Virus record (IMG/VR): IMGVR_UViG_3300028920_000022
Span: 372,001 to 436,000 of that record
From: a virus
DNA: 64,000 nt
Strand: one strand, 5' to 3'
The translations under genes were made by a program, and so were the position numbers. Within the stretch, counting starts at the first letter, position 1. Every line of letters begins with the position of its first letter. Below the pieces are notes generated by a model. The model did not search any database. It was not told the DNA's origin and saw only the letters and a list, made by a program, of their open reading frames with translations. This document shows, in pieces, positions 9,580 to 53,657 of this stretch.

Positions 9580-10214
9580 ACAAAGTAACTACTAAAAAGA
9601 TTAGCACATATGAGTGTTTTGAAAAAACAATCAAACACCCCAAACATGGTACTATTATTTGTTCTGAAGGGTTTGTAAACGGCATAAAAACAGACCAAAG
9701 TTTTCGTTTAAAAAAGCCAAACCATGAAGGGTACGAGCCTGAAAGGATGACATTTATTTATTATGGTGGACCAATAGATACCCACAAAGTTAGCGAAACA
9801 CATTTTGATGATGATTGTAACTACGGTTTGACACAGGTTTTTGTTGAGGATTTAGAGAAGTTTTCAGATTTCAAAAACCTATATTGTCTCTGGATGAGCA
9901 TGGATAATAACATTTTTCGTTTAACTGATCCACGACCACTTCCTGTTGTAATGCGGTGTGAATTATGGCAAACCAAATATGATCTAGATGCCGCAGCTAA
10001 AAAACTTTCTTCTCGCAAAGACGTGAGGAATATTATACGTACCAACAACTGTGTACAGAATTGGGACATTTGCGGAAAACATAATTTGGTTTTTGATTAT
10101 TATTCTTCACAAAAAACTGTGTGTGATCTTAATGGTGTTATTTGTGAGCGCGACCGTATGATCGCAGACATAGTTGGTGTTGGAAAGTTTCGATATGAAG
10201 AAAAAGAAGACTAA
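9576..10214 (+). CDS. Hypothetical 212-residue protein
   Basis: Soluble protein with scattered Cys and His (YECFEK, HFDDDCNYG, NNCVQNWDICGKH, CDLNGVICERDRM). The Cys residues could form a metal site but are not in a standard ribbon pattern. No family recognised. It starts within the stop of the preceding gene and its 3' end overlaps a small basic ORF. Confidence 0.55.
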   Translation: MNKVTTKKISTYECFEKTIKHPKHGTIICSEGFVNGIKTDQSFRLKKPNHEGYEPERMTFIYYGGPIDTHKVSETHFDDDCNYGLTQVFVEDLEKFSDFKNLYCLWMSMDNNIFRLTDPRPLPVVMRCELWQTKYDLDAAAKKLSSRKDVRNIIRTNNCVQNWDICGKHNLVFDYYSSQKTVCDLNGVICERDRMIADIVGVGKFRYEEKED

Positions 10215-10338
10215 ACGTAGTAGCTCCTACGAAACACGCTTGTTAATATTCCCCAAACCAAAACGAAAACGCCCCATTAATCCTCCAGGTCCTGCGAGTG
10301 CATACGATTTAGCTACTAGACCAAAGTGGGATAATTGA
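10195..10338 (+). CDS. Small very basic protein (47 residues)
   Basis: ATG at 10195 opens a 47-codon frame overlapping the previous gene by 20 bases and ending at TGA 10336-10338. The product is Lys/Arg/Pro-rich (MKKKKTKRSSSYETR; PKPKRKRPINPPGP), probably disordered and nucleic-acid binding. It fills the only gap in this stretch. Confidence 0.42.
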   Translation: MKKKKTKRSSSYETRLLIFPKPKRKRPINPPGPASAYDLATRPKWDN

Positions 10339-10352
10339 AAGGGAAAACCCAT

Positions 10353-10616
10353 ATGACATTAAGACAATGGTTGGCTGGCAAATGGTTTCTATTATTGGGG
10401 CGTTGTCCTGCTTGCAAATCAAACCCTTTTGTAAAGAGATGTGGAATATGCGAAAAGAGTTTTCCATTATATGGATACCCTGTACAACAATATATATGGA
10501 GACAATATTCATGCTGGTTACAAAGCCATCAATACTATCTACTGTCTGTAAGAAAACAAACTGCGCATAAACGGTTTCAAGCTAAAGAATACGAAGAAAC
10601 ATATTCGTACAATTGA
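10353..10616 (+). CDS. Zinc-finger protein with hydrophobic N-terminus
   Basis: The ATG at 10353 gives 87 residues; an upstream TTG at 10335 is less likely. It has WLAGKWFLLLGRCPACKSNPF followed by CGICEKSF, i.e. two CxxC pairs 11 residues apart, and an aromatic, Gln-rich C-terminal half. It resembles small DUF983-like cysteine proteins only loosely. Directly upstream of the first PARP gene. Confidence 0.5.
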   Translation: MTLRQWLAGKWFLLLGRCPACKSNPFVKRCGICEKSFPLYGYPVQQYIWRQYSCWLQSHQYYLLSVRKQTAHKRFQAKEYEETYSYN

Positions 10617-10628
10617 AAGAAAAAAGAT

Positions 10629-12098
10629 ATGCCCGCAAAAGTTCAAAAAACTCCTTTGCTTAAGGAAGGCGAATATACCATAGCCGATGTTTCAGATTGG
10701 AACTTTTTTGATCTTTCAGGCGAAAACGCCCACACTTTTGGCACGTCCAACAAACAATATCACATAGAAATGCACATAGGTAAAAATGGTAAGTGTCAGA
10801 TCTTTACCATGTTTGGTCCAACCGGGGGTACCCAAACTAAAAATTGGCGCTACTTTGACTCTGAAGTTGCCGCCCGTAAAGAATTGGCGTCAATGAAGAA
10901 AAAAAGAGTCAAAAAGAATTATAAAGAAATTAAAGTTGCCATTCGTGCTTACGGTACCGAAGAGGCTAAAAAGATCACTCAAGCTGTTGAGTTCAACAAC
11001 TCAGATATAAAACCCTCCAGCAATCTCCATAAAGAAACCCAACGATTAATGCGGGTTCTCTTTGGTGCAACCGAACACTTCGTTGTTACCACTTTGCGCT
11101 GCCCTCTGGGTCAATTAACCAATGAACAAGTAGATGAGGGTTATAAACGCCTAAATGAAGCAAAAAAATTAATTTCTAATGGTTCACCAAATGCTAAACG
11201 GATTGAAACACTTACCAACGAATTTTATGCTATTATCCCCCACAATTTAGGAGCCGGTGCGAGAGGTAAAATGATGAACCTCTTGCTGGATACTCCACAA
11301 AAGATTGCTCAAAAAGAATATGATTTAGAAACATTATTGGACGCCAAATCGGTTGGAGCTGCCCTGGAAAAGGGCTCAACCGTTGATGATCAATATAATG
11401 AATTGAATACCGATTTTGATTTTATTGATCATAACGATCCTTTATTTCAATGGGTAAATAGGATTGTTTTGGATACTCGGGCACACAACCATAATACTTT
11501 GGGTAAGATTACAGTATTGAATGCTTGGAAATATAATCGTCATGGCGAGAGAAACGTTTTTGAAAAGAGGATGAAAGAGATTGCCAAGGAGTGTAAAAAG
11601 CCGTTTACGCCTAAAGTTTTGAGGAATGCTGTTGAAAATCGGTTAGATATTCCAGATGGACAGGGAGGATTATATAAAAAGGCTAATGTGTTGCCATTAT
11701 TTCATGGAACCCGGACTCAGAACATTGCTGGAATTACGAAGAAGGGATTGTTGATAAGACCTTCGGGTGTGATTTTAGAAGGTTCATGCTACGGTAGTGG
11801 TGTTTATTATGCAAACAACAGTAGCAAAACGATCAACTATAGTAGTGTTCGGGGGGCTTATTATACCCACGGCAAAGACGATCGTGGTTATATATTCATA
11901 GTAGATTGCGTTCTAGGCGACACTTATGTTCCAACTACTGCAGCAAACTACACCAAGGGTAATATTTCCCCCAACCATTCAGTGTGGGCAAAGGGAGGAT
12001 ACTCTGGCGTAATTAATGATGAGTATGTGTTGTTGGACATAAATCAGCATAATATTAGATACTTAGTGGAGTTTACTTGCGGGAAAAATGGAATATAG
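10629..12098 (+). CDS. Poly(ADP-ribose) polymerase 1 (WGR + regulatory + catalytic)
   Basis: The 489-residue product has the architecture of the conserved half of PARP1/2. A WGR domain covers about 20-105 (YHIEMHIGKNGKCQIFTMFG), a helical PARP regulatory domain about 130-265, and the ART catalytic domain about 350-485. The H-Y-E triad is present: His359 in PLFHGTR, Tyr393 in SGVYYAN and Glu465 in INDEYVLLD. It should use NAD+ to attach ADP-ribose, with the WGR sensing DNA ends. No BRCT or zinc fingers. The Glu implies elongation is chemically possible. Target unknown. Confidence 0.9.
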   Translation: MPAKVQKTPLLKEGEYTIADVSDWNFFDLSGENAHTFGTSNKQYHIEMHIGKNGKCQIFTMFGPTGGTQTKNWRYFDSEVAARKELASMKKKRVKKNYKEIKVAIRAYGTEEAKKITQAVEFNNSDIKPSSNLHKETQRLMRVLFGATEHFVVTTLRCPLGQLTNEQVDEGYKRLNEAKKLISNGSPNAKRIETLTNEFYAIIPHNLGAGARGKMMNLLLDTPQKIAQKEYDLETLLDAKSVGAALEKGSTVDDQYNELNTDFDFIDHNDPLFQWVNRIVLDTRAHNHNTLGKITVLNAWKYNRHGERNVFEKRMKEIAKECKKPFTPKVLRNAVENRLDIPDGQGGLYKKANVLPLFHGTRTQNIAGITKKGLLIRPSGVILEGSCYGSGVYYANNSSKTINYSSVRGAYYTHGKDDRGYIFIVDCVLGDTYVPTTAANYTKGNISPNHSVWAKGGYSGVINDEYVLLDINQHNIRYLVEFTCGKNGI

Positions 12099-13651
12099 AA
12101 AAAGTTAGAAAGCTTGTGGAAAAGCGTGGTGGAAAACTTTTAACGACCGAATATATTAATCAACACAAAAAGCTAGATGTTATTTGTGAAAAGGGACATT
12201 TATGGCACCCATCTGGAGAAGCATTACGAAAGGATCGTTGGTGTTCTTTTTGTCGTGGTAGCAGAATTAGCAAATCCAAAATAGATCCCAACAAAATATA
12301 CAAAATAAAGCAGGTAGCTAAGGAACGGGGAGGCGAATGTCTGTCGGATATTTATGTCAGTGCGTTGGCAAAATTAAAATTCAAGTGTAAAAATGGTCAC
12401 ATCTGGGAATCTAATTATAAATCTGTTTATAATAGAGGGTCTTGGTGTCCAATATGTTGTTTTAACCCCTCAATTTATCCCCAAAAGGGGGAAACATTTG
12501 TTCAGGCGTCACTAAAGCATGCAGCAAATATAGCCAAGAAAAGGGGTGGAAAATGTTTATCGATGGATGCTAAGACGTTGGGAAAATTAAGGTGGCGATG
12601 CGATCAGGGGCATGAGTGGAAAGCCACATATGCCAATGTTATTAATGGATCTTGGTGTCCCACATGTAAAATAACAATTTCCGAATACATTTGTAAGGGA
12701 TATTTGGAACACTTGTTTGGCGCTAAATTTTTAAAAATGAGACCACGATGGTTAAAAAACCCACACGGTGGATTATTAGAGTTGGATGGTTATTGTGAGG
12801 AGCTAGGTGTTGCCTTTGAGCATAACGGTAGGCAACATTATCATCAAGCGTGGTTTCAAACAGAATACGAATTTACCTCTCTTCAAAAACGCGATAAAGT
12901 AAAAAAAGAATTATGCGAACAAAACGGGGTTAAATTAATTATTATTCCAGCCATTGCTTATATGACTGAAATTGAGGATTTGCCCAAAGTAATAAAGGAA
13001 GAGTTTGTCAGGTTAAATATTAATAACATAAAAACATTTCCGCCGGTAAAAGAAGCAATAGACATTGATCAATATTATATGGTAAATTGGGATGATTATT
13101 TTGAGAAAATAAAGTCTATTATGGAATCGCATGGATGGGAGTGTTTATCCAAGGAATATAGGGGCGGTTTATATAAGTTAAAAATAAAATGCAATAAAGG
13201 ACATGTTTTTGACGAGTTTCCATGCAATATCAAAAAGTGGAAAGGGTGTCTAGAGTGTAAAAAAGAGAGAAACAGAGAGTCCATGCTTGTCAAAGCTTAC
13301 GCATTAGCAAAGAATCGGGGCGGAGAATGTTTATCTTCTGAATACAAAAACAACCATTCAAAGATGTTGTGGAAATGTAGTTGTGGCAATATTTGGGAAG
13401 CCAGTTACAATTGTATTCAGCGAGGAACGTGGTGTCCTCCATGTTCTATTATAAGGCGGGCAAACAAAAAACGACTGGGTATAGATGTTTATCAAAAAGC
13501 GGCGAAGAAAAAGGGAGGAAAATGTCTTTCCAAGGAAGTAAGTAGTTGTTTTGACGAGATAGAATTCGAGTGTGGGCAAGGACATAGATGGTTTGCGCGA
13601 GCGGATCAAGTGAAAAATACGGACAGCTGGTGTCCGAAATGCAACTACTAA
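12077..13651 (+). CDS. Vsr/EDxHD-like nuclease flanked by six zinc-finger repeats
   Basis: TTG start overlapping the PARP stop; an alternative is GTG at 12116. The 524-residue protein has three repeats of the form RGGxCLS...CxxGHxW...WCPxC, then a PD-(D/E)xK/Vsr-like domain at about 205-320 (LLELDGYCEELGVAFEHNG, RQHYHQAWF, KLIIIP), then three more repeats. This arrangement resembles EDxHD homing endonucleases of phages and giant viruses, with repeats likely used for DNA recognition. The gene is probably mobile, inserted between the PARP and the small-protein array. Confidence 0.72.
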   Translation: MREKWNIEKVRKLVEKRGGKLLTTEYINQHKKLDVICEKGHLWHPSGEALRKDRWCSFCRGSRISKSKIDPNKIYKIKQVAKERGGECLSDIYVSALAKLKFKCKNGHIWESNYKSVYNRGSWCPICCFNPSIYPQKGETFVQASLKHAANIAKKRGGKCLSMDAKTLGKLRWRCDQGHEWKATYANVINGSWCPTCKITISEYICKGYLEHLFGAKFLKMRPRWLKNPHGGLLELDGYCEELGVAFEHNGRQHYHQAWFQTEYEFTSLQKRDKVKKELCEQNGVKLIIIPAIAYMTEIEDLPKVIKEEFVRLNINNIKTFPPVKEAIDIDQYYMVNWDDYFEKIKSIMESHGWECLSKEYRGGLYKLKIKCNKGHVFDEFPCNIKKWKGCLECKKERNRESMLVKAYALAKNRGGECLSSEYKNNHSKMLWKCSCGNIWEASYNCIQRGTWCPPCSIIRRANKKRLGIDVYQKAAKKKGGKCLSKEVSSCFDEIEFECGQGHRWFARADQVKNTDSWCPKCNY

Positions 13652-13860
13652 CTGATTTTTTAACCAAGCGCGGACACACAATAGACACACCATTACATGG
13701 GGTTTGGCGTATTTTTTGCGTCAATTGTGAACATTATTTCTATTACGATGAAGAGGGCATTTGGTATGGGGTGGATCTTGGCAAGTATTCAATATATTTG
13801 CGATACGATATTAACCCGATACCATGCAAAGAATTAATCATTCGGGATATCATCAAATGA
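13639..13860 (+). CDS. IIK-tail CxxC family protein, array copy 1
   Basis: 73 residues from the ATG at 13639, which overlaps the nuclease stop; an upstream in-frame ATG at 13588 is less likely. Features: KRGH, a CVNCEHYFYY knuckle, and tail PCKELIIRDIIK. His plus CxxC plus the Cys before the tail could form one zinc site. Function unknown. Confidence 0.7.
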   Translation: MQLLTDFLTKRGHTIDTPLHGVWRIFCVNCEHYFYYDEEGIWYGVDLGKYSIYLRYDINPIPCKELIIRDIIK

Positions 13861-14135
13861 TCAACGAACTTAAAAACTTCAAACAGTTTTTGTGTAATTT
13901 AGGTCACATACTGGTCGAGTTTGATATTGGTAGCGTACCTATAGACCCTGATGGATATTTTAAACCAGGAACATATCTTAGATGTGTTGAATGTGATTAT
14001 ATTTTTTGTTTATTGGACGGGGAAAATCACACTGATGTTTGGCATTGTTTACACAGTTGTTTACCGGAATCTTGGAATAAATATACTGAGCAACAAACCT
14101 GCAAAGAGTTGATTATCAAAAGCATAATCAAATGA
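13857..14135 (+). CDS. IIK-tail CxxC family protein, array copy 2
   Basis: 92 residues; ATGA overlap with copy 1. Contains NLGH, CVECDYIFCLLDG and tail TCKELIIKSIIK. The extra loop between the CxxC and the tail is His/Cys-rich (WHCLHSCLPESW). Function unknown. Confidence 0.7.
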   Translation: MINELKNFKQFLCNLGHILVEFDIGSVPIDPDGYFKPGTYLRCVECDYIFCLLDGENHTDVWHCLHSCLPESWNKYTEQQTCKELIIKSIIK

Positions 14136-14431
14136 CCCACGAAGTAAAACAATTCATAAAGTTTTTGTCAGATTTGGGACACAAACCGTACAAGTTTGAT
14201 GTTTCAGCTGGTCTAAAATATGGACATTATTTCAAATGTAGTGAATGCGACTATGTTTTTTGCTTGTTATTAGAGAATTATGACGATACACATTATCACT
14301 ACAACTATGGAAGATATTGGTTTAGTTATTACCCAAGTTTTCCAGAAAGCTGGCGGTATAATAATTATGTGAACCCAGAATTGGAGCCAACAAGCTGTGC
14401 GGATATAATAATCAAAAACATAATAACATGA
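14132..14431 (+). CDS. IIK-tail CxxC family protein, array copy 3
   Basis: 99 residues, the longest copy; ATGA overlap. DLGHKPYKFDVS, CSECDYVFCLL, a His/Tyr-rich insert, and tail SCADIIIKNIIT ending in Thr instead of Lys/Glu. Function unknown. Confidence 0.7.
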   Translation: MTHEVKQFIKFLSDLGHKPYKFDVSAGLKYGHYFKCSECDYVFCLLLENYDDTHYHYNYGRYWFSYYPSFPESWRYNNYVNPELEPTSCADIIIKNIIT

Positions 14432-14697
14432 TTTCTTTCCAAAACCTATACAAACTAGGACACAAACTAAATACGTTTGATATTTCTAGTATAGTTTTAA
14501 CGGGTGTTCGGTTTAAACCTGGAATATATCTAAAATGCAGTGAGTGTGGACATATTTTCTATTTACTGAACAAAGCTAATTGTGATACAGATATTTGGTT
14601 TTGTGCGAGTAATGATATGCTTGATGGGTGGGATCTGTATAATCGCGGGAAACCGCCGACTTGCGATGAGTTAGTGATCAAAGAAATTATTAAATGA
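14428..14697 (+). CDS. IIK-tail CxxC family protein, array copy 4
   Basis: 89 residues; ATGA overlap. KLGHKLNTFDIS, CSECGHIFYLL, WFC..DGWDLYNRG and tail TCDELVIKEIIK. The motif WFxxxxxxxGWxxY recurs in copies 2, 4, 5 and 6. Confidence 0.7.
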   Translation: MISFQNLYKLGHKLNTFDISSIVLTGVRFKPGIYLKCSECGHIFYLLNKANCDTDIWFCASNDMLDGWDLYNRGKPPTCDELVIKEIIK

Positions 14698-14939
14698 CAG
14701 CTTTAGAAAAACTCCATATCGATGGGCACGACGTAGTAGAAACGGATCTTTCACACATACCACATTTAAATATAGGTTTTAATATTGGCAAGTATGTTTT
14801 GTGCAATAAGTGTGATCATATTTTTTGTGTTATAAATAATGATGTATGGTTTTGTGTTAGTCGCGAATTAATATATGGTTGGCGAAAATATAAAAAACAT
14901 ACGTGCAAAGAGCTTATTATTCAGGAAATTATCAAATGA
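14694..14939 (+). CDS. IIK-tail CxxC family protein, array copy 5
   Basis: 81 residues; ATGA overlap. DGHDVVETDLS, CNKCDHIFCVI, WFC...YGWRKY and tail TCKELIIQEIIK. Close relative of copies 4 and 6. Confidence 0.7.
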   Translation: MTALEKLHIDGHDVVETDLSHIPHLNIGFNIGKYVLCNKCDHIFCVINNDVWFCVSRELIYGWRKYKKHTCKELIIQEIIK

Positions 14940-15184
14940 TAACATTAGAAAGCCTGTCCACATTTGGTCATGAATTAACCGAGATAGACGTTTCTTCGCT
15001 AGAGTGGCTAAACTCCGGCACATATCTAAAATGTCAAAAATGCGATTATATTTTTTGTTTGTTGGATGGTGCAGAACAGAGTAGCGAGATTTGGTTTGGT
15101 AATGATTTAACTTACGGCTGGAAATTATACAACAATTTTCTGTACACTTGCGATGAATTAATAATCAAAGATGTTATCAAATGA
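14936..15184 (+). CDS. IIK-tail CxxC family protein, array copy 6
   Basis: 82 residues from the ATG overlapping the previous TGA (an earlier ATG at 14903 lies inside copy 5's tail). FGHELTEIDVS, CQKCDYIFCLLDG, tail TCDELIIKDVIK. Confidence 0.7.
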   Translation: MITLESLSTFGHELTEIDVSSLEWLNSGTYLKCQKCDYIFCLLDGAEQSSEIWFGNDLTYGWKLYNNFLYTCDELIIKDVIK

Positions 15185-15414
15185 GCCCAGAAGACGAAGT
15201 TAAGGAGATTCTTTCTGAGAAGGGACATAATATAATATTTGTGGAAGAATCAGTAAACGGAACTTGGTTTAAGTGTGTTAACTGTGGTTATTTTTTCCAC
15301 ATTTCTAAAAATAACATTACAATTTGGGTTTACGGAGAAAACATATATCCTTTTTTGTATGACCGTGATACAAATACCTGCAATGATTTTATCATCAAAA
15401 GCATAATTAAGTAA
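15181..15414 (+). CDS. IIK-tail CxxC family protein, array copy 7
   Basis: 77 residues; ATGA overlap. EKGHNIIFVEES, CVNCGYFFHIS, tail TCNDFIIKSIIK. Ends in TAA that overlaps the next ATG (TAATG), unlike the TGA used by most copies. Confidence 0.68.
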   Translation: MSPEDEVKEILSEKGHNIIFVEESVNGTWFKCVNCGYFFHISKNNITIWVYGENIYPFLYDRDTNTCNDFIIKSIIK

Positions 15415-15659
15415 TGGATTTTCATAATTTTCTGAAGGAAAGAAATCATACAGTTTCTTTTTATTGCGCCAAATACGATCAACAGTTTTTTGTTTGTTCA
15501 AAATGTGGATATTATTTTTATCAAAACGTGACTTTTAGGGATATAAATCAAATTTGGTTTTGCGATGACATTGACGGATGGTTTACGTTGTACAACGCCA
15601 CCGATGATAGGTTTAAACTAACTTGTGATGAGTTTATAATTATGGGTATTATAAAGTGA
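15414..15659 (+). CDS. IIK-tail CxxC family protein, array copy 8
   Basis: 81 residues. ERNHTVSFY replaces the GH, keeping His. CSKCGYYFYQN, tail TCDEFIIMGIIK with Met in the usual Lys position. Confidence 0.68.
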   Translation: MDFHNFLKERNHTVSFYCAKYDQQFFVCSKCGYYFYQNVTFRDINQIWFCDDIDGWFTLYNATDDRFKLTCDEFIIMGIIK

Positions 15660-15877
15660 TCAGTCAAGATTTTTATTCCACACTTTCTGCTTTGGGACAT
15701 AGTGTCACATTTGATTCTTCAATTATAAACGGGTTTTGGGTACGGTGTTTGAAATGCGATTGTTTATTCTATTGTGGGCAGGCGGAACAGAAAATTTTGA
15801 TAATTTTTGCTGATGGTTTTCAAGTATATAATGGAGAAACATGTTTAGAGTTGACTATTAAGGAAATCATCGAGTGA
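15656..15877 (+). CDS. IIK-tail CxxC family protein, array copy 9
   Basis: 73 residues from a GTG that overlaps the previous TGA. ALGHSVTFDSS, CLKCDCLFYCG, tail TCLELTIKEIIE. From here the terminal residue is mainly Glu. Confidence 0.66.
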   Translation: MISQDFYSTLSALGHSVTFDSSIINGFWVRCLKCDCLFYCGQAEQKILIIFADGFQVYNGETCLELTIKEIIE

Positions 15878-16122
15878 AAAATAGTTTAGAAGCGTTTCTT
15901 TCTGAACGTGGTCACAAAGTTATGGCGTGGGAATCAGAATCTCTTAAACACCTATCTCGTGGTGTATATGTAAAGTGTGTCAAATGTGAGTGCGTATTTG
16001 CTAAATTATTTAATAGTATAGAGTTTAATCGAATTTGGTTAAAGCCGGCAAAATTTTTCGGGTGGCAGGTATACGAGGCTGAGACTTGTGATGATATGAT
16101 TATTAAGGAAATAATTGAATGA
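15874..16122 (+). CDS. IIK-tail CxxC family protein, array copy 10
   Basis: 82 residues from a GTG start overlapping the previous TGA. ERGHKVMAWESE, CVKCECVFAKL, FFGWQVYEAE, tail TCDDMIIKEIIE. Confidence 0.66.
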   Translation: MKNSLEAFLSERGHKVMAWESESLKHLSRGVYVKCVKCECVFAKLFNSIEFNRIWLKPAKFFGWQVYEAETCDDMIIKEIIE

Positions 16123-16334
16123 TTACTAAACAGGAATTTTTGACCACGATTGCTCCGGCGGGACATTCTATCGAATGGTTTTCTGAAAATGTTTGTCACT
16201 GTGTAGTTTGTGGTTGTAGCTTTTTGGTCTCAAATAGTGGCTGGATGTTGATATCGATTGATGGTGGGCGAAATTATATTAACCACACCAACTTAACTTG
16301 CAGCCAATTAATAATACGAGCAATAATCGAATGA
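16119..16334 (+). CDS. IIK-tail CxxC family protein, array copy 11
   Basis: 71 residues, the shortest copy; ATGA overlap. PAGHSIEWFSE, CVVCGCSFLVS and tail TCSQLIIRAIIE. Confidence 0.66.
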   Translation: MITKQEFLTTIAPAGHSIEWFSENVCHCVVCGCSFLVSNSGWMLISIDGGRNYINHTNLTCSQLIIRAIIE

Positions 16335-16561
16335 AGAATTATCTGAAAACATATTTGCAAAGAAAAGGGCATAAAGATTTAGAATGTCGTTTCGAGAATG
16401 CAGACGGTGTTGTTTTTCTTTGTCGAGACTGTAGTTGGTTGTTTCTTTATGATGGTTCCAACATAGCTATACACGGGTTTACAAATATTGTCATGGTTGA
16501 TGATTATGATGACAATTCCCCCTCTTGCCAGGAACTAATAATCAGAGACATTGTCACCTAA
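16331..16561 (+). CDS. IIK-tail CxxC family protein, array copy 12
   Basis: 76 residues from the ATGA overlap at 16331. RKGHKDLECR, and CRDCSWLFLYDG for the CxxC strand. Tail SCQELIIRDIVT ends in Thr. Stop is TAA. Confidence 0.66.
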   Translation: MKNYLKTYLQRKGHKDLECRFENADGVVFLCRDCSWLFLYDGSNIAIHGFTNIVMVDDYDDNSPSCQELIIRDIVT

Positions 16562-16826
16562 AATATTAACTCACAATGGACACGTAGGTGTCTTTTTGGA
16601 ACACTCTAGTTTGAGTGGTTTGGGAACAACTATTCCCATTGATGTGTACAAATGTCACAAATGCGAGCTTTGTTTCATAAAGGATGTTGAACATTTTTTC
16701 GCAGTGGTAAAGAGATTTTGGAGTCACAACAAATATGATTATTTTTGGGCACAATACGATTATCCAAAACCTGGAGTGTTATGGGCATGTGACGAAAAAG
16801 ATCGAATAATCCAAGAAATCATTTGA
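16551..16826 (+). CDS. IIK-tail CxxC family protein, array copy 13 (divergent)
   Basis: 91 residues from a TTG start that overlaps copy 12 by 11 bases. NGHVGVFLEHS and CHKCELCFIKD are kept, but the end is ACDEKDRIIQEII, with a shifted tail lacking the final charged residue. It closes the array and may be decaying. Confidence 0.55.
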   Translation: MSPKILTHNGHVGVFLEHSSLSGLGTTIPIDVYKCHKCELCFIKDVEHFFAVVKRFWSHNKYDYFWAQYDYPKPGVLWACDEKDRIIQEII

Positions 16827-16899
16827 AATAATTCGTGCTTGCTTGTCGAGCGCAAGTAACCGTTGGAAGTATTGCTTGGCAGTTTTCGAAGGATAAAAC

Positions 16900-17904
16900 A
16901 TGGACGTAATACCAGGATATACGTTTGACGATGTTCTTTTAATTCCTAAAAAATCTAATATAGAAAGCCGAGAAGATATCGATCTTTCGGTAAAATTTAG
17001 AAAAGGAATAGAGCTTAAGATTCCTATTATTTCCGCCAACATGAAAAATGTTACCGGACCTAAAATGGCACAAAAGATTGCCAAGCTTGGCGGGATGGCT
17101 ATACTGCATAGGTTTGTAGATGGCTTATATGATTTTGTAAAACAATATACCGATTCTTTGGTTATGCCAGAAGATGTTAATCATATTGGTGTTTCGGTTG
17201 GTATCCATGATTATGACAAGAAGTTGGTTGAACATGCCGTTGGGGCAGGGTGCAAAATAATTTGTGTAGACGTTGCACATGGACATCATGATAATTGTTT
17301 GAGAATGTGTGAGTATATTGCGGGTAACTTTCCTGATGTTTTGTTAATTGCCGGCAACATTTCTACTGCGGAGGGTGCATTAGATTTAGTCAATGTTGGA
17401 GCAGATGTAATTAAGGGTGGAGTCGGATCCGGATCGTTATGTTCTACACGTATTGAAACAGGAAATGGAGTTCCACAACTAACAGCTTTGGACAATATAT
17501 ATCAAGTTTTAAAAAATACCGATGTTGTGATTGTCTCAGATGGGGGTGTCAAAGTTGCCGGAGATCTAACTAAATGTTTAGTGTTTTCTCATGCTGTAAT
17601 GTTGGGTAATCTTCTAGCAGGAACCGATGAAGCTCCTGGTGAAATTATTCAAGTTGATGGCTTGGAATTTAAACAATATGCCGGAAGTTCTACTCATAAA
17701 TCAAAACACATTGAAGGTGTAATTGGATTAGTTCCTTATCGAGGTCCAGTAGAAAAAGTAATTACTAAACTAATGGAAGGTCTCCAAAGTGGTTGTTCTT
17801 ATCAAGGAGCAAAAAATTTAATTGAACTTAGAAAAGATCCAAAATTTGTTTCTATTTCTAATGCTGGTTTGATAGAAAGTAAACCACACGACGTAAGATA
17901 TTAA
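16900..17904 (+). CDS. IMP dehydrogenase / GMP reductase family enzyme
   Basis: 334 residues with AAGGA in front of the ATG. A TIM-barrel start (YTFDDVLLIPKKS), the active-site loop GVGSGSLCSTRIETG with catalytic Cys181, and VPYRGPVEKVI near the end are family hallmarks. The C-terminus SKPHDVRY resembles IMPDH more than GMPR. The regulatory CBS pair of IMPDH is absent and the flap is short (FKQYAGSSTHK). It acts in guanine nucleotide supply, either IMP to XMP with NAD+ or GMP to IMP with NADPH. Confidence 0.82.
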   Translation: MDVIPGYTFDDVLLIPKKSNIESREDIDLSVKFRKGIELKIPIISANMKNVTGPKMAQKIAKLGGMAILHRFVDGLYDFVKQYTDSLVMPEDVNHIGVSVGIHDYDKKLVEHAVGAGCKIICVDVAHGHHDNCLRMCEYIAGNFPDVLLIAGNISTAEGALDLVNVGADVIKGGVGSGSLCSTRIETGNGVPQLTALDNIYQVLKNTDVVIVSDGGVKVAGDLTKCLVFSHAVMLGNLLAGTDEAPGEIIQVDGLEFKQYAGSSTHKSKHIEGVIGLVPYRGPVEKVITKLMEGLQSGCSYQGAKNLIELRKDPKFVSISNAGLIESKPHDVRY

Positions 17905-17914
17905 AGAGGATGAC

Positions 17915-18397
17915 ATGAATTCAGTTAAAATAACAAACATGAACGAATTAGAAATGATTAGCGATGAAGTCAAAGAAATTTTTAATGATAAAGATTTGAA
18001 TATTTCTTCTATAATTAAAAAGTTAGCTGAAGAATTCGGTTCTGCGGCTACTTTAGAACAGATTTATAATATCTATACTTCGTATAAATTGCCATCAAGG
18101 GTTATTAATGGAAAAACTTATGTTGCCGGTTATAAAGGACAAGAACGTATCGGTGACGGTTGGTATAGTAATGCCACATTGCTTGATGTAAAACAAAGCG
18201 GCAAATCTTGTAAATTAATGTTTGGTTTAGACGGCAAGTTTATATATCAAACGTTAGATGAGTTTACATTAAATGAAGTTGTGGACTATGCTAAGGATAT
18301 AGGAAAGACATTTAAGATATTTGTTTTGTCAGAAACTATTCCTGCGACTGGTGATTTGCATGCAGTAATAGATAAGTCGGAGAAAGAAACTGGGTAA
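17915..18397 (+). CDS. Hypothetical 160-residue protein
   Basis: Good ribosome-binding site (AGAGGA). A helical N-terminal third (ISSIIKKLAEEFGSAATLEQI) that could be a helix-turn-helix-like unit is followed by a beta-rich part (KTYVAGYKGQERIGDGW, KLMFGLDGKFIYQ). No family recognised. Follows the IMPDH-like gene. Confidence 0.55.
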   Translation: MNSVKITNMNELEMISDEVKEIFNDKDLNISSIIKKLAEEFGSAATLEQIYNIYTSYKLPSRVINGKTYVAGYKGQERIGDGWYSNATLLDVKQSGKSCKLMFGLDGKFIYQTLDEFTLNEVVDYAKDIGKTFKIFVLSETIPATGDLHAVIDKSEKETG

Positions 18398-18398
18398 A

Positions 18399-18749
18399 AT
18401 GTCGATATTAGTTTTAAAACATTCAGACGACAATGAAGAACGCAAAGTAGTTGCAAAGTGTGATTGTGCGTGGCCAGAACATTACGCCGAATTTTGTTGG
18501 ATAGAAACAGATTCAGTTTCTACCGATTGGTCAGAAATGCACATTCACATTGGAATGGCAAAACAAACGTTTTGGCGTAGAGTCTGGTTTGCGATTAAAT
18601 ATGTTTTTGGATATCAAAGCAGGTTTGGCGCATATGAGGAAGCGGCTTTGAGTGCCGAAGATGTAAAAGTTTTAGCAGAATATCTAACGGATGCCTCTAA
18701 AGTTTTGGCTAAACAAAACCAAGCGTTTGCAGATTCGTTATTGAAGTGA
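18399..18749 (+). CDS. Phage hypothetical protein of a recurrent small family
   Basis: 116 residues. The segment FWRRVWFAIKYVFGYQSRFG is of a type I have often seen in short phage proteins of unknown function: a beta-hairpin domain followed by an amphipathic or membrane-touching helix. No catalytic residues. Starts one base after the previous stop. Confidence 0.55.
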   Translation: MSILVLKHSDDNEERKVVAKCDCAWPEHYAEFCWIETDSVSTDWSEMHIHIGMAKQTFWRRVWFAIKYVFGYQSRFGAYEEAALSAEDVKVLAEYLTDASKVLAKQNQAFADSLLK

Positions 18750-20447: not shown

Positions 20448-22064
20448 ATGACTACATCATCTGATTTTGTGAAAAGTTTAATTGGGGACCAGGAAAAGGC
20501 AGAGGTTTTAGAGCCTTACCTGAAAAAGAACGAAGATTGGCGGTTCAGTGTTGCTCGTGTAATGCTAACCGGAATTCTCAAGAACCAGTTTTACCGATCC
20601 GCAGAAGATGCAGCCAAAGAAGCGTTGCCATTAATGCTTATGGCTGCAAAGAAGGATCCCGAATTCCTATTAAAGGCTGCCGCTTTTGCACGTGAAGCTA
20701 ATATGAAGGGAATGGTCAAACTGGGTCTGGCAGCTTTAGCAACTCAGGCTCCAGCCCAATTTTTAAATGATAATCGGGCTACTATTGTTGGTTTGTTAGG
20801 AACTTTTCACCCAGGACAATTACTTCAATTTGTTGAACTAATGAAGTCAAAAGTTTTGGGCAGGGGTTTTGGTGCCCGCTCTCAGAAATGGGTACAGTCT
20901 GTAATGCAGTCTTGGCGCCCAGAAAAGGTAGAAGAATATACCCTAAAATATCCAACTGCATACAAGGTTCTTCTGCGTCTTGTTCACCCATCATATAGTG
21001 ATGTGCGAAGTGGGTTGGTTCGATATTTATTGGACCCCTCAGAAAAATACCCAGAATATGGCACACCAGCGGGCAAGATTCAAAAAGCGGTTGAGCGCAT
21101 CAAAACCTCTAACGATGATGCGTATATTGCCAAAACCATGTTGGAATATGAAATTCCTTGGGATGTTGTCAAAGGATTCCATTCTATTAATGGAGATGTT
21201 GGTTTAGCAATGTTAACCCAGATGGGGCTTTCTGCTTTACTGTTAAACACACGCAGTTTAGAGAAAAATGGTGTTTTAAACACCCCGGATGGAGTCCAAG
21301 CGTTTGCTCTAAAGTTAAATGAGGTTAAAAACGGCAGATCTATTCCCATTGATTTTGCCAAACCATATATTTATTCTGAGAACCATCAGGTCAAGGAGTT
21401 ATTAGTAAAGGCGATTGTTGACACCTTGGGCAAAGAAATGCCTCATATTGAGGGAAGAAGCATTGGTGTCAGCGTTGATATTTCTGGTTCGATGAGCAAC
21501 GAACCATTACAAACTGCTGGGCTGTTAGCAATTCCATTTTTGAAAGCACGCAATTTGTGGTTTACCACGTTTGATACGCAGTGCTATGAAGAAGGAACCC
21601 AGGTACGCGGTCGAAGTTGGTATGGCGCTTTATCTGAGGGAAAATATATTTGTCCACCACTGAAGGGTTTGGAGCCGGAACAGCAGGTAAAGAATCTGTT
21701 AAGTTTGCGGGTAAATGGTGGAACTAATGTTTCTTCGTCTTTGGACAGAGCGTTGCAAAACAATATTAATTTGGATTTGCATGTTCTAATTACCGATGAG
21801 CAGCAAAATGCCGGAACTCCGTTGATGAGTGTTTGGCGTGAATATAAGCGTCGAATTAATCCACGAGCCGAGTTGTGGATAATCAATGCTACAAACTATG
21901 TGTGGCATTCTGCGGATTTCGATGATCCGAGCGTTACCGTTTATCAGACCATGACGCCTGCAATTTTTAAGAATCTACGATTTTTTGGTCAGGATTTAGT
22001 TTCTGCTATTAAATCGTATGATTTGAATAAGGTTCGTAGGTTGGGTAAGTTTAAGCCGGATTGA
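20448..22064 (+). CDS. Ro60-type TROVE domain protein with vWA domain
   Basis: Strong ribosome-binding site GGAGG. The 538-residue product has an N-terminal TROVE HEAT-repeat ring (about 1-330) with ANMKGMVKLGLAALATQAP and the DDAYIAKTMLEYEIPWDVVKG region, followed by a von Willebrand A domain with the MIDAS motif DISGSMS (Asp344) and later metal residues. Ro60 proteins bind misfolded RNAs and Y RNAs and work with exoribonucleases such as PNPase. A non-coding RNA locus with Y-RNA features lies 1.5 kb downstream under a near-identical promoter. Confidence 0.92.
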   Translation: MTTSSDFVKSLIGDQEKAEVLEPYLKKNEDWRFSVARVMLTGILKNQFYRSAEDAAKEALPLMLMAAKKDPEFLLKAAAFAREANMKGMVKLGLAALATQAPAQFLNDNRATIVGLLGTFHPGQLLQFVELMKSKVLGRGFGARSQKWVQSVMQSWRPEKVEEYTLKYPTAYKVLLRLVHPSYSDVRSGLVRYLLDPSEKYPEYGTPAGKIQKAVERIKTSNDDAYIAKTMLEYEIPWDVVKGFHSINGDVGLAMLTQMGLSALLLNTRSLEKNGVLNTPDGVQAFALKLNEVKNGRSIPIDFAKPYIYSENHQVKELLVKAIVDTLGKEMPHIEGRSIGVSVDISGSMSNEPLQTAGLLAIPFLKARNLWFTTFDTQCYEEGTQVRGRSWYGALSEGKYICPPLKGLEPEQQVKNLLSLRVNGGTNVSSSLDRALQNNINLDLHVLITDEQQNAGTPLMSVWREYKRRINPRAELWIINATNYVWHSADFDDPSVTVYQTMTPAIFKNLRFFGQDLVSAIKSYDLNKVRRLGKFKPD

Positions 22065-27060: not shown

Positions 27061-27303
27061 ATGAGAAATCACAGTTTCATTCGGGTGGAAACACCACAAA
27101 GTTACTCCGCTCACAAAACAGCACAGTATTATAGATGTCAAAGATGTAATTTATTAATGTATGACACTGGCATTTCTCGTTACGTTTCTTGTCTGCATGA
27201 TACTGGCATTATGCCAACGCCGCTTATGTCGCCAGACACAATAGACTGTGAAATGCAAGAAATAATATGGAAAGAAGAAATTATTAAGGACATAATAGAA
27301 TGA
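27061..27303 (+). CDS. IIK-tail CxxC family protein, second subfamily (a)
   Basis: 80 residues with NHSFIRV, YYRCQRCNLLMYD and terminal EEIIKDIIE. The early His, CxxC strand and tail match the 13-gene array, but the knuckle is YYRCxRCNLL. It ends in ATGA with the following sister gene. Confidence 0.65.
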   Translation: MRNHSFIRVETPQSYSAHKTAQYYRCQRCNLLMYDTGISRYVSCLHDTGIMPTPLMSPDTIDCEMQEIIWKEEIIKDIIE

Positions 27304-27548
27304 AACTTGGCACCCACGATTTTGTTGAAATATGCGAACCTATAAATAGTCCAATTTTTAACGCAGAATGTCAATATTATCGATGTATACGATGTAATCT
27401 TTTGATTTATAAAAGTAAGCTTTATCATCCGGGAGAGTGTGTTACATCATTGGTAGAGAGTAGTAGAACAGTCTCACCAGATAGTATCAACTGTGCCGAA
27501 CAAGAGAAAAAGTTTCGGTTACAATCGATTAAGGACATAATAGAATGA
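27300..27548 (+). CDS. IIK-tail CxxC family protein, second subfamily (b)
   Basis: 82 residues: LGTHDFVEI, YYRCIRCNLLIYKS, PDSINCAEQ and tail LQSIKDIIE. A tandem sister of the preceding gene; PDTIDC/PDSINC recurs in both and in the gene at 50000. Confidence 0.65.
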   Translation: MKLGTHDFVEICEPINSPIFNAECQYYRCIRCNLLIYKSKLYHPGECVTSLVESSRTVSPDSINCAEQEKKFRLQSIKDIIE

Positions 27549-42092: not shown

Positions 42093-42424
42093 TGCGCTTT
42101 CCTCATCACTATGGACTTAAATTCTGGCGGACCACCAATCACAACAACATCTTCAGCATTATACTGGCATGGAACTTTTTCAAACCATAAGTTATCAAAA
42201 ACTGTATCTGTACTTGGGCTTCCTATAATATATGAGTTGAATACACGTATCGTTATTGGGTTAATTTGTGAGTAAGGAAACGCAAAGTTAGCCTTAAAGA
42301 CATGTTTAAGTCTGCATATATCAAAACGAATAATATCGCTAAAGAACAGATTATTGTCTCTCCACAGATTTCTGGCGGTACCGACAATCACCCCTTCACA
42401 TTCAATTAGAATGTTTGTTGACAT
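42089..42424 (-). CDS. Hypothetical 111-residue protein
   Basis: ATGA overlap with the amidase gene. Beta-rich (NILIECEGVIVGTARNLW, NPITIRVFNSYIIG). No family recognised; lacks the IIK tail of its upstream neighbour. Confidence 0.52.
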   Translation of the reverse strand: MSTNILIECEGVIVGTARNLWRDNNLFFSDIIRFDICRLKHVFKANFAFPYSQINPITIRVFNSYIIGSPSTDTVFDNLWFEKVPCQYNAEDVVVIGGPPEFKSIVMRKAQ

Positions 42425-42690
42425 TATTGTATTATGTTTTTTATAACGTATTCGTCACAAGAATACAAATCACCAACACAAGAATATAAATCACCAACAT
42501 ATATAATGTTATTTTCTGTTTTTAAACTGCACGCGAAAAACCCACACTTTTTACATTGATATTGTATAGCAACCTCAAACACATTATTATCTATAACCTC
42601 AAAATCATGTGTGCTTAATTTTTCATTATTTATGGGATAATGATTCCACCGTCTTTTTATGATTTCGGAAATATTAATTTTGTGCATCAC
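42424..42690 (-). CDS. IIK-tail CxxC family protein with internal duplication
   Basis: 88 residues: STHDFEVI, IQYQCKKCGFFACSL and terminal SCDEYVIKNIIQ. A 21-bp tandem duplication (42456-42476 and 42477-42497) repeats GDLYSCV just before the tail. It belongs to the THDF/YYRC-type subfamily. Confidence 0.62.
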   Translation of the reverse strand: MMHKINISEIIKRRWNHYPINNEKLSTHDFEVIDNNVFEVAIQYQCKKCGFFACSLKTENNIIYVGDLYSCVGDLYSCDEYVIKNIIQ

Positions 42691-43548: not shown

Positions 43549-43980
43549 CTACACAATTATATCCTCAATAACCACATCATCGTCGGTGTACGAACAAGGA
43601 ATTGTCCACCACTCTAGTGCTTCATTTAGAACTGCATTTCCGCTGGGATGATAACAAGAACCACCAGCAATACTTTTCAAATATGGAACTACTATTTGCT
43701 CACCTTGGATGGCGCTAGCATGCAAATGTTTACCGGGGTTAGTTGAAGCCAATATTCTACATTTTTTGCATATACAACTATATTCTCCAAAATTCCATAT
43801 TGTTGTTGCACTAACCGACCTGCCTTTTACAATAATCTGTGCCAAATCGTGTTTTTCGTCAAACTCACCGTAACGCAAACTTGTTACACATCCTTTTGAA
43901 TCACGTGCATACCAACGAACCCCACACTTCACACAGAAATCATAAGTCATTCCGTTATAACTAAATTGATGCGGTTTCAT
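43549..43980 (-). CDS. IIK-tail protein, long member
   Basis: The ATG at 43980 shares its A with the preceding TAA; 143 residues. FCVKCGVRWYA, CICKKCRI, HPSG and the terminal DDDVVIEDIIV. It has two CxxC units and the hydrophobic tail, so it looks like an extended relative of the small-protein family. Confidence 0.58.
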   Translation of the reverse strand: MKPHQFSYNGMTYDFCVKCGVRWYARDSKGCVTSLRYGEFDEKHDLAQIIVKGRSVSATTIWNFGEYSCICKKCRILASTNPGKHLHASAIQGEQIVVPYLKSIAGGSCYHPSGNAVLNEALEWWTIPCSYTDDDVVIEDIIV

Positions 43981-49999: not shown

Positions 50000-50254
50000 T
50001 TATGTAATTATGTTCTGAATTATAAAATCATTACAATTTATTTGTTCAGGATTCAATGCCGTAGCAATACTTATCTGAGAAATATAAAAATTTATTTCAT
50101 TTTGAAATATTCCTTTAAATATTATTAATCCGCAATTCTGGCATTGCCAATATTTTGGACGAATATCGTTAATCAAATTAATACCATCATTAAGTTTTGC
50201 AACCTCTTCTGCTGTTAACTCCTTCAGTTCGTGTGTACCTATTTTGAGACTCAT
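50000..50254 (-). CDS. IIK-tail CxxC family protein, second subfamily (c)
   Basis: 84 residues: IGTHELKEL, YWQCQNCGLIIFKG, NPEQINCND and tail FIIQNIIT. The layout matches the pair at 27061-27548. ATGA overlap with the upstream gene, which carries the same tail on an unrelated body. Confidence 0.65.
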   Translation of the reverse strand: MSLKIGTHELKELTAEEVAKLNDGINLINDIRPKYWQCQNCGLIIFKGIFQNEINFYISQISIATALNPEQINCNDFIIQNIIT

Positions 50255-50658
50255 TCTATTATATCTTTGATTATTTTTTCATTTTCGGTTAAAAATTCTT
50301 CTCTATACACGTTATCTGCTACCCACGATACTCTTAAAGAATTGCTATGAGAATATCCAGTTAAGATAGCGTTACAAACATGGGTAATATATTTTTTATG
50401 ATTTTCTTTCCAACCGAACATAAAATGAAATTTATTATCCACACTGGTTCCACGAAAACGTTCTTTTACAAAATGTTCGATATCAAAGTTTTCGTCAAAT
50501 AAAATCAAACCTTCTAATTCACCATGAACATCTTCATATCTTCCGCAATATTCGACGGTCATGGTGAGGCTATAAGCCCAACCGATAATTTCTTCGTTGT
50601 ACAGTACTTGAACACTATTCGATAATGTAGCGAATGTCGATATTAGTTCTACAGGCAT
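50251..50658 (-). CDS. Hypothetical protein carrying the IIK tail
   Basis: 135 residues. The body is a beta-rich domain without CxxC (LTMTVEYCGRYEDVHGELEG, KFHFMFGWKENHKKYI) and the protein ends NEKIIKDIIE. The tail is thus attached to a different fold. Start overlaps the upstream gene by 44 bases; a shorter start is possible. Confidence 0.58.
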   Translation of the reverse strand: MPVELISTFATLSNSVQVLYNEEIIGWAYSLTMTVEYCGRYEDVHGELEGLILFDENFDIEHFVKERFRGTSVDNKFHFMFGWKENHKKYITHVCNAILTGYSHSNSLRVSWVADNVYREEFLTENEKIIKDIIE

Positions 50659-51001
50659 CGCACAGAGTACGATGCCAGCTTAATTCGTCTCGAAGTTTTC
50701 CTGGTTTACCACAATCTTCGCAAACGTGGTCGCTTTTATTTTCGGCTTCCATAACCAAATCTTGAACTATTTTAATTTCTTGTTCCGTTACATTTGGGTA
50801 ACTTAAATATCTATAACCAAATCTCAAACCTCCCAACTTTTCTTTAATGTAGGTAGCTTCAATTTTAATATCTGTTTTTTGAATTTCTATACATAATTCA
50901 CGCAGGAGTTCGTACCAACCATCTCCGCACCCTATGTAGACGTGGGATACAAAGATTTTGGGGAATTCTTGACGCAATTTGTCGGTTAATTCTGGGCTCA
51001 T
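50615..51001 (-). CDS. Phage zinc-binding protein with IIE tail
   Basis: 128 residues. DGWYELLRELCIEIQ, EKLGGLRFGYRYL and CEDCGKPGKLR...TLCDACR define a recurrent phage protein of unknown function. In this copy the C-terminus continues NIDIRYIIE, the same type of hydrophobic end as its neighbours. ATGA overlap upstream. Confidence 0.62.
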   Translation of the reverse strand: MSPELTDKLRQEFPKIFVSHVYIGCGDGWYELLRELCIEIQKTDIKIEATYIKEKLGGLRFGYRYLSYPNVTEQEIKIVQDLVMEAENKSDHVCEDCGKPGKLRDELSWHRTLCDACRTNIDIRYIIE

Positions 51002-51432
51002 TCTATTATATCCTTAATGATACGTTCGTTTTCGTTTTTTTCTACGTCTTGTGGAAGGAACTTGTAAATTATAAACATGCATGGTTCGGTCAAAATATTC
51101 TTTGCATTACACTTTTCTAAAATGTCAAAAATAATAATTATAATAATAGGCAGTAAAACTATTGGATATGCCCACAAAAGTAAAAACAGAATTATCGGCG
51201 GGTATTCTTTGAAAAAACCATTAATACCAGCCTGGACATCTGTTTTGTATATTTTGTCGCCTGCGTGTAATTCTATTTTGTATATCATTTCTGTAAGTAT
51301 AAATGCCAAACAAAAAGGGAATCCCATAAGATACATAGTCAGCAATCCCCACGGCATAGGGGACAATTTAGCAACTCCCATGCCGGCGAGGAAGAAAATG
51401 ATGCTACCTATTAGAAAGTTTCTTATTTTCAT
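50998..51432 (-). CDS. Membrane protein carrying the IIK tail
   Basis: 144 residues with four hydrophobic segments (LIGSIIFFLAGMGVA, LLTMYLMGFPFCLAFILTEM, PPIILFLLLWAYPIVLLPII and following) and a soluble C-terminal tail ending NERIIKDIIE. The tail is identical in pattern to that of soluble zinc proteins, here presumably on the cytoplasmic side. Confidence 0.62.
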   Translation of the reverse strand: MKIRNFLIGSIIFFLAGMGVAKLSPMPWGLLTMYLMGFPFCLAFILTEMIYKIELHAGDKIYKTDVQAGINGFFKEYPPIILFLLLWAYPIVLLPIIIIIIFDILEKCNAKNILTEPCMFIIYKFLPQDVEKNENERIIKDIIE

Positions 51433-53149: not shown

Positions 53150-53656
53150 CTACGTTATATACTGTCGGAAACTCTTATAGTCCCCAAACTCTTGCCTAAT
53201 TTCTTTCAAAACTTTTTCTTGGTTGCCGCCAACATATTTCTTTAACAAATAGGCAACCAAATCATCCTGAGCAATTTCTTTTAGTTGACACAGTGGACAC
53301 CGTTCGCTGGGAAGATCATATCCACTACTTTCTGGCTCATACAGATCATTAATAGCATCTTCGTGATCTTTATATAGCTCTTCGATTACATCGTCTCCTG
53401 CTGATTCGAGCATTTTTAATTTGACGTCATCGTGGCGAAATATTTGATTTAGATCTGCACGTTTTCCCTCAAGTGACAGATCTCTTTCTATTTCCTCGCC
53501 GGGGAGCAAATATTCTGCCAAAAACTCATGTCCGCAAACACATTCGGCAGTAGGTTCCTCATATTCTCCATCCCAGCCCGCAAGTGTAATTCCGCTTACT
53601 TGGCATGTGAAGCTGCTAGAACTGCTGTTAGAAACGAATCCTGTTCTTATTTTCAC
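53150..53656 (-). CDS. SNSSSSSF-tag family protein 1
   Basis: 168 residues starting MKIRTGFVSNSSSSSF. A CVCGHEFL unit, an acidic helical middle and CPLCQLKEI follow. The closest relatives are the two genes at 54023 and 54544, which share the CGH/CNGH and CPxC spacing. Function unknown; the N-terminal tag recurs in prokaryotic proteins but I know no role for it. Confidence 0.65.
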   Translation of the reverse strand: MKIRTGFVSNSSSSSFTCQVSGITLAGWDGEYEEPTAECVCGHEFLAEYLLPGEEIERDLSLEGKRADLNQIFRHDDVKLKMLESAGDDVIEELYKDHEDAINDLYEPESSGYDLPSERCPLCQLKEIAQDDLVAYLLKKYVGGNQEKVLKEIRQEFGDYKSFRQYIT

Positions 53657-53657
53657 G

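Follow-up and report, generated by a model that had tools for sequence, protein, structure and literature searches.

The window analysed here, 64,000 nucleotides comprising bases 372001-436000 of the 458,729 bp virus record IMGVR_UViG_3300028920_000022 (G000), contains an array of thirteen small genes, most of whose products end in the same hydrophobic peptide. This array is a small part of a genome-wide set of proteins that carry a common C-terminal tag of about ten residues, with the consensus (T/S/N)-x-(D/N)-E-hydrophobic-(I/M)-I-(K/R)-(D/E/N)-I-I-(E/K) at the chain end. The tag is portable between protein bodies, fixed at the C-terminus, selected as a peptide, coherently phage-specific in its flavour, and borne by accessory rather than core proteins.

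A portable C-terminal tag

The array occupies positions 13639-16826 of the window on the + strand and consists of thirteen consecutive open reading frames (ORFs) encoding 71-99 aa, with no internal stop codon in any of them. All 12 joins are overlaps, mostly ATGA or GTGA, with one TAATG and one overlap of 11 bp before the last ORF. Coordinates, overlaps, lengths and open frames confirm the run of mostly coupled genes described in the sequence-only reading of this DNA. Array bodies are 23-48% identical to the first of them, and the invariant positions of the alignment are Met1, one His, both cysteines of the CxxC motif, one later Cys and one Ile, so that the CxxC reported for every member stands. 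An early GH, likewise described as a common feature, is present in 12 of the 13 proteins, the exception being ORF 8. The C-terminus TC-x-E-L-I-I-K-x-I-I-K/E holds for most members; the tail of ORF 13 is degenerate. The T-C had been counted as part of the tail, but belongs to the zinc ribbon described below, and the invariant tag proper is confined to the last 7-11 residues. The array is directly preceded and overlapped by a gene (12077-13651, +) whose 524-aa product has treble-clef zinc repeats of the DUF4379 type.

Tags in G000 were counted by scoring the last seven residues of every ORF of 45 aa or more in the stretches read against a position weight matrix; ORF starts were partly inferred, and the chance expectation was taken from the rate of internal 7-mers. 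A total of 150 C-terminal tags were found where 0.96 were expected, 125 of them on CxxC proteins and 25 on proteins without CxxC. The majority of bearers lie in a minus-strand region at 1.6-48.6 kb. A scan for the tail DNA pattern returned 71 sites; the minus strand holds 57, most of which lie at 1.6-48 kb, and the reversed pattern had no site anywhere in G000. Two of the 25 proteins without CxxC are encoded in the window (50251-50658 and 50998-51432) and 23 elsewhere. On these proteins the motif is anchored to the chain end, with Glu at position -9 in 21 of 25, Ile at -6 in all 25, Lys, Gln or Arg at -5 in 24, Asp, Glu or Asn at -4 in all 25 and Ile at -2 in 22. The motif sits in the last 7-11 residues in all bearer families, with no residues beyond it. 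Reuse of the tail independently of the zinc fold, the lack of which would by the sequence-only reading have refuted its idea of a terminal tag, is therefore borne out by these 25 proteins and by other families in related phages.

The bodies that carry the tag are diverse. By blastp, 268 bearers from six contigs, trimmed of their last 14 residues, were grouped into 116 clusters, 61 of which lack CxxC; blastp over-splits, and these figures are an upper bound on the number of unrelated bodies. Bearers with membrane segments occur in G000 at 17401, 113396, 155811 and 422998. Bearers scanned against known enzyme families gave no matches, and Pfam returned only DUF4116 and minor repeat matches. For one bearer, tag-free homologues were sought among isolates and none was found.

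Selection acts on the peptide

Tail-coding DNA is highly variable. In G000, 148 of 150 tail DNAs are distinct, and the peptide IIREIIE is written in 11 ways in 12 genes; in the related record G001, MIKDIIE is encoded by 23 different DNAs in 38 genes. The basic position -5 is encoded by AAA, AAG, AGA, AGG and all four CGN codons. The 21 nt coding for the tail were followed by a stop codon in 44 of 44 cases. In eight ortholog pairs between G000 and a second relative, G002, tails are 71% identical (40/56 residues) as against 51% for bodies (410/800), and among the identical residues synonymous recoding was seen in 17/40 (43%) of tail and 205/410 of body positions. The near-complete distinctness of the tail DNAs, the recoding and the regular stop uphold the earlier proposal that the peptide and not the DNA is selected. 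A DNA-level cause, whether a Shine-Dalgarno sequence, a promoter or a junction repeat, was rejected as the main cause on the same evidence.

The main body family

The bodies of this family are, as predicted from sequence and model, zinc ribbons at the level of the fold, with a putative H-CxxC-C site on a beta core. Among 109 aligned members, the His and both CxxC cysteines are present in 109/109 and the late Cys in 102/109. The late Cys, which is the C of the tail's T-C, would complete the set of four zinc ligands and so probably belongs to the fold. An AlphaFold2 model of one member comprised a small beta structure and a helix at residues 62-71 (CSDWIIREVI), with a mean predicted local distance difference test score (pLDDT) of 83.

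A 38-member zinc-type profile matched 122 places in G000 and gave one or two weak matches per genome in three other huge phages. Two representative members and one further, related protein had no match in Pfam or PHROGs, and fold searches of array-type proteins against PDB and BFVD gave none at E <= 0.001. The literature searched for the motif and the phenomenon contained no description of either. The statement that the family is undescribed holds within these databases and this literature. Small phage zinc ribbons of the form HxF/HxW...CxxCG...C share their ligand pattern with the main body family; ordinary phage zinc ribbons, however, are not known to end in this tag, and the main family matches no Pfam or PHROG model.

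Distribution and turnover

Relatives bearing the tag were located by scanning IMG/VR with IIK(D/E)IIE followed by a stop. Those compared were G001 (435,004 bp), G002, G006, G007 and G008; several of the relatives are fragments. Terminase identity to G000 is 60% for G006 and 57% for G001. G001 carries 120 tags (0.33 expected), 75 of them on proteins without CxxC. In the stretches read of the others, 26 tags were counted in G006 (0.08 expected), 22 in G002 (0.05 expected), six in G007 and five in G008. DUF4116 repeat proteins of 180-452 aa are tagged in G001 (118370-119728 and others), so the tag is not limited to tiny proteins. G001 also has an array of Cys-poor small proteins in which the last six residues, IKDIIE, are invariant and the bodies 24-51% identical. 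For this family AlphaFold2 predicted a confident, unrelated fold followed by a low-confidence end helix (residues 84-92) that corresponds to the tag.

Each phage has its own flavour of tag. Position -4 is E or D in G000, D in G001 and N in G006, and position -7 is I in G000, M or I in G001 and I in G006. Within G001, bearers with and without CxxC differ by 0.25 bits over seven positions, as compared with 1.0-2.0 bits between genomes, an effect of genome that was reached by none of 2000 permutations. Such joint drift of unrelated families within one phage is what a common partner would lead one to expect. DNA homogenisation could also give a coherent flavour, but the tail DNAs are not alike.

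Tagged proteins turn over fast while the tag persists, since only four of the 242 proteins that G000 and G001 share (at 1e-8) are tagged in G000. No tags occur at 176-385 kb of G000, where terminase, portal, capsid and polymerase are encoded. By capsid protein, Bacillus phage G is the closest isolate: its major capsid protein is 52% identical to that of G000, and in phage G the tag does not rise above control level. About 28 tandem paralogous genes of phage G (JN638751.1, 352533-371001, within gp444-gp474) encode proteins that all end near YWKENDRYLAKIL, so that another conserved C-terminal helix, distinct from the tag, marks a gene array in this phage.

A search of 257 Gb of bacterial and archaeal genomes gave 43 single scattered matches, 11 of them in open frames of different proteins; these were read as chance, and a cellular origin of the tag was rejected. 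A viral scan with the IIREIIE pattern returned chance matches only, and a scan of viral data with the zinc-family alignment found nothing. Use of NAMPT as a marker yielded no relatives in IMG/VR, and three huge phages that share the NAMPT gene (LR756500, LR756501 and LR756511) are without the tag. The window itself encodes a nicotinate/nicotinamide phosphoribosyltransferase-like protein at 28864-30006, recognised by eye and supported by further analysis. The tag apparently belongs to a single clade of uncultured phages, which either invented or retained it.

Proposed function and candidate partners

In our judgement the tag is probably a portable C-terminal docking helix that links many disposable domains to one common partner. 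The Ile residues at i, i+1, i+4 and i+5 would form a face that follows a Glu and an N-cap residue (T/S/N/D), as would suit a short docking helix. The lack of enzyme-family matches, the occurrence of membrane segments and the fast change of the bodies favour binding modules on a common partner. We infer that the tag is helical in all its bearers, that the common partner binds it and that the bodies bind different targets; the single receptor and the different targets of the zinc domains put forward in the sequence-only reading are to that extent hypothetical, and so is the anti-defence role that it gave as another option. The tag would form a short amphipathic helix whose Ile face docks on one partner common to all bearers, and the bodies would be small, fast-changing, non-enzymatic-looking modules, each presumably with a target of its own. 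The modules would be mostly H-C-C-C zinc ribbons in G000, and DUF4116 repeats and many unclassified small domains elsewhere. The phage would in this way possess exchangeable adaptors by which many different targets are delivered to a single effector; were that effector ClpP or a chaperone, the bearers would be proteolytic or chaperone adaptors.

The most testable candidates for the partner are ClpP, trigger factor, DnaJ and a CDC48-type AAA ATPase of 459 aa, all of them phage-encoded and conserved across the tag-bearing genomes examined; IF-3, peptide deformylase and thioredoxin are candidates as well. A total of 74 proteins are common to G000, G001 and the part of G006 that was read, and 16 of these have a detectable homologue in phage G. 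ClpP is encoded in all three genomes (G000, 160338-161009; G001, 410663-411316; G006, 73688-74242). G000 also encodes trigger factor (204514-205746), a full DnaJ (216461-217408), initiation factor IF-3 (192697-193260), a peptide deformylase with a SEC-C motif (193421-193939) and thioredoxin (194261-194593), all five of which are conserved in G001 and G006 and together form a nascent-chain and folding set that is unusual for a phage. At 207158-212322, G000 encodes DNA polymerase III alpha, which by eye appears to be split by an intein-like sequence at approximately 210-211 kb. Trigger factor and ClpXP cooperate in bacteria (PMC7804408), and in the adaptor SspB the C-terminal XB peptide provides the docking on ClpX (PMC12373786). 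These two precedents make delivery to a protease or chaperone a concrete and testable version of the proposal.

A number of observations weigh against a docking helix with a common partner. ClpP alone does not predict the tag, since phage G lacks it but encodes ClpP and ClpX-like proteins. In neither G000 nor G001 was a ClpX homologue of the phage G type found. The modelled zinc-ribbon helix starts, with fair confidence, at the zinc-ligand Cys and could partly serve the fold. In addition, codon -3 prefers ATA in the tails of G000, G001 and G006; a secondary DNA-level pressure beyond the peptide exists here, and docking does not explain it.

A more far-reaching form of the proposal, which we regard as doubtful, is a jumbo-phage clade with plug-in adaptors. 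Each genome would encode 100-150 disposable binding proteins whose docking helix is read by a phage-encoded machine, for example a ClpP-associated unfoldase, or trigger factor and DnaJ, and new specificities would arise by the tagging of new domains.

Alternative explanations

The tag might be a virion-packaging signal by which small proteins enter the prohead, to be ejected later into the next host. Many unrelated small proteins sharing one short terminal peptide is the pattern that cargo would show; giant phages package dozens of ejected proteins (PMC5694885), and a phage-specific flavour would be expected if the partner were a phage structural protein. Proteins with membrane segments also carry the tag, however, and would make poor capsid cargo; the corresponding signal of phage T4 is N-terminal and cleaved off, and 150 cargo types far exceed known counts, which leaves packaging unlikely. 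A degron, by which early accessory proteins would be made short-lived through phage ClpP and a host or phage unfoldase, is in our estimation quite unlikely. It would act on soluble and membrane proteins alike, its C-terminal position is typical of ClpXP signals, and ClpP is present in all three tag-bearing genomes tested. An amphipathic helix with a charged last residue (E/K/T) is nevertheless unlike known C-terminal degrons, phage G has the protease and unfoldase without the tag, and Lon, for which a search was made, was absent. Mutual pairing of tags into mixed helical bundles of different bearers would account for coherent drift within a genome, and the I-I-x-x-I-I face could pack on its own copies; some ten residues are, however, hardly enough helix to keep a bundle stable, a second conserved face for a partner was not seen, and we hold self-association to be very unlikely.

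The overlaps between genes raise the question of a translation element, in which residues in the ribosomal tunnel, or the codons acting as Shine-Dalgarno sequence or promoter, would promote termination and reinitiation at the overlapping next gene. The stop overlaps a possible start in 115 of 150 tagged genes, as compared with 87 of 240 longer untagged ORFs, and Shine-Dalgarno-like cores occur in 63 of the 115 overlapping and 12 of the 35 other tagged genes. The ATA preference at codon -3 points the same way, as does a local excess of promoter-like matches of the sigma-70 type at window positions 10000-18500 (52 vs 32.2). Against this, the identical peptide is carried by genes whose stop overlaps no start (35/150 in G000, 45/120 in G001 and 18/26 in G006), the tail DNA differs in nearly every gene, and Lys and Arg interchange through all their codon boxes; we consider such an element highly improbable. 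The least probable of the explanations weighed here is an ordinary C-terminal helix of the zinc ribbon, without separate function and spread by recombination at gene junctions. The helix does directly follow the fourth zinc ligand in the main family, but the tag is kept on tens of clusters without a zinc site, in phages whose proteins are otherwise different, and is better conserved than the bodies, whereas decay would be expected of a junction that had spread passively.

Tag-bearing genes and other features of the window

Seven or eight tag bearers are encoded in the window beyond the array; their coordinates and those of the array genes are collected in Table 1.

Table 1. Array genes and further tag-bearing genes of the window (positions in the window; aa, amino acids)
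Feature	Position	Strand	C-terminal tail	Remarks
Array ORF 1, 73 aa	13639..13860	+	PCKELIIRDIIK	Overlaps end of DUF4379 gene
Array ORF 2, 92 aa	13857..14135	+	TCKELIIKSIIK	
Array ORF 3, 99 aa	14132..14431	+	SCADIIIKNIIT	
Array ORF 4, 89 aa	14428..14697	+	TCDELVIKEIIK	
Array ORF 5, 81 aa	14694..14939	+	TCKELIIQEIIK	
Array ORF 6, 82 aa	14936..15184	+	TCDELIIKDVIK	
Array ORF 7, 77 aa	15181..15414	+	TCNDFIIKSIIK	
Array ORF 8, 81 aa	15414..15659	+	TCDEFIIMGIIK	NH replaces GH
Array ORF 9, 73 aa	15656..15877	+	TCLELTIKEIIE	GTG start
Array ORF 10, 82 aa	15874..16122	+	TCDDMIIKEIIE	GTG start
Array ORF 11, 71 aa	16119..16334	+	TCSQLIIRAIIE	
Array ORF 12, 76 aa	16331..16561	+	SCQELIIRDIVT	
Array ORF 13, 91 aa	16551..16826	+	...CDEKDRIIQEII	Probable TTG start; degenerate tail
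Solitary zinc-family member	27061..27303	+	EIIWKEEIIKDIIE	
Solitary zinc-family member	27300..27548	+	KFRLQSIKDIIE	
Zinc-ribbon family member	42424..42687	-	CDEYVIKNIIQ	
143-aa protein	43549..43980	-	TDDDVVIEDIIV	Two CxxC
Zinc-ribbon family member	50000..50254	-	CNDFIIQNIIT	
135-aa protein	50251..50658	-	NEKIIKDIIE	Without CxxC; no Pfam or PHROG match; tag reuse on unrelated body
128-aa protein	50615..51001	-	NIDIRYIIE	Two CxxC; diverged tail
144-aa protein	50998..51432	-	NERIIKDIIE	Strongly hydrophobic (membrane-type) segments; tag reuse on membrane protein

A further set of genes in the window shares a terminus of a different kind. Four tandem genes at 53150-55113 (-) encode proteins with different bodies and the common N-terminus MKIR(T/L)(G/S)FVSNSSSSS(F/Y), which was found on seven proteins in G000 and on none in G001. 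Two related proteins, encoded at 10629-12098 and 24469-25875 (+), resemble, by eye, WGR plus PARP-type ADP-ribosyltransferases, and a product encoded at 31034-32050 resembles an ADP-ribosylglycohydrolase. The product of the gene at 20448-22064 (+) resembles, again by eye, a TROVE/Ro60 RNA-binding protein, one of which (gp540) is annotated in phage G.

Comparison with known systems and significance

By analogy, the tagged set would work most like the ankyrin-repeat (ANKR)/F-box adapters of poxviruses or like SspB, and by the features tested is a member of neither group. The ANKR/F-box (PRANC) adapters form a large viral repertoire in which variable N-terminal binding modules precede a conserved C-terminal recruiting part (PMC9414399). 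A variable module before a fixed C-terminal part is also found here (116 body clusters, with DUF4116 among the bodies, and one tag), a resemblance that is one of analogy only. The poxvirus F-box comprises 40-50 residues, whereas the tag has approximately ten and belongs to a phage, with no involvement of the ubiquitin system; neither an F-box nor a PRANC domain was found by Pfam at the C-terminus of tag bearers. In SspB, a body that binds substrates is followed by a short peptide, hydrophobic and basic, which ends the chain and by which the adaptor docks on its protease partner. An extreme C-terminal peptide separate from the body is present in all bearer families, and the tag phages encode ClpP. 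SspB is, however, a single adaptor in bacteria as opposed to the 120-150 proteins here, and the tag has a motif of its own, an E-x-I-I-K-D-I-I-E helix.

The capsid-targeting sequence of T4 is likewise a short terminal peptide common to several otherwise different phage proteins, but is N-terminal, 10-20 residues long and cleaved by the prohead protease (PMC5694885). The tag is C-terminal, is uncleaved as far as can be judged from sequence, and occurs on far more proteins, membrane proteins included; it was rejected as a sequence of the T4 type because it lacks the features of an N-terminal cleaved propeptide. Unrelated proteins enter the shells of encapsulins and microcompartments by means of short terminal peptides or amphipathic helices. 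We take the tag motif to be unlike the encapsulin cargo peptide, and a shell dedicated to the tagged proteins was not identified. A bacterial microcompartment shell gene (PF00936) was found in none of three tag-bearing genomes, although positive controls were detected, which makes a microcompartment cargo tag unlikely; a shell encoded by the host is possible.

One tag accounts for well over 100 genes of one phage that would otherwise lack an explanation, and the identity of its partner would give the function of the whole tagged set. If the tag is instead a signal for packaging or degradation, it would still be a new and very widely reused C-terminal signal of phages. Should the adaptor system prove true, these phages would run a modular recruitment repertoire comparable to the F-box adapters of eukaryotic viruses, and the tag would offer a ready-made recruitment tool. 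The plug-in set, if real, would be the counterpart in prokaryotic viruses of F-box adapter repertoires.

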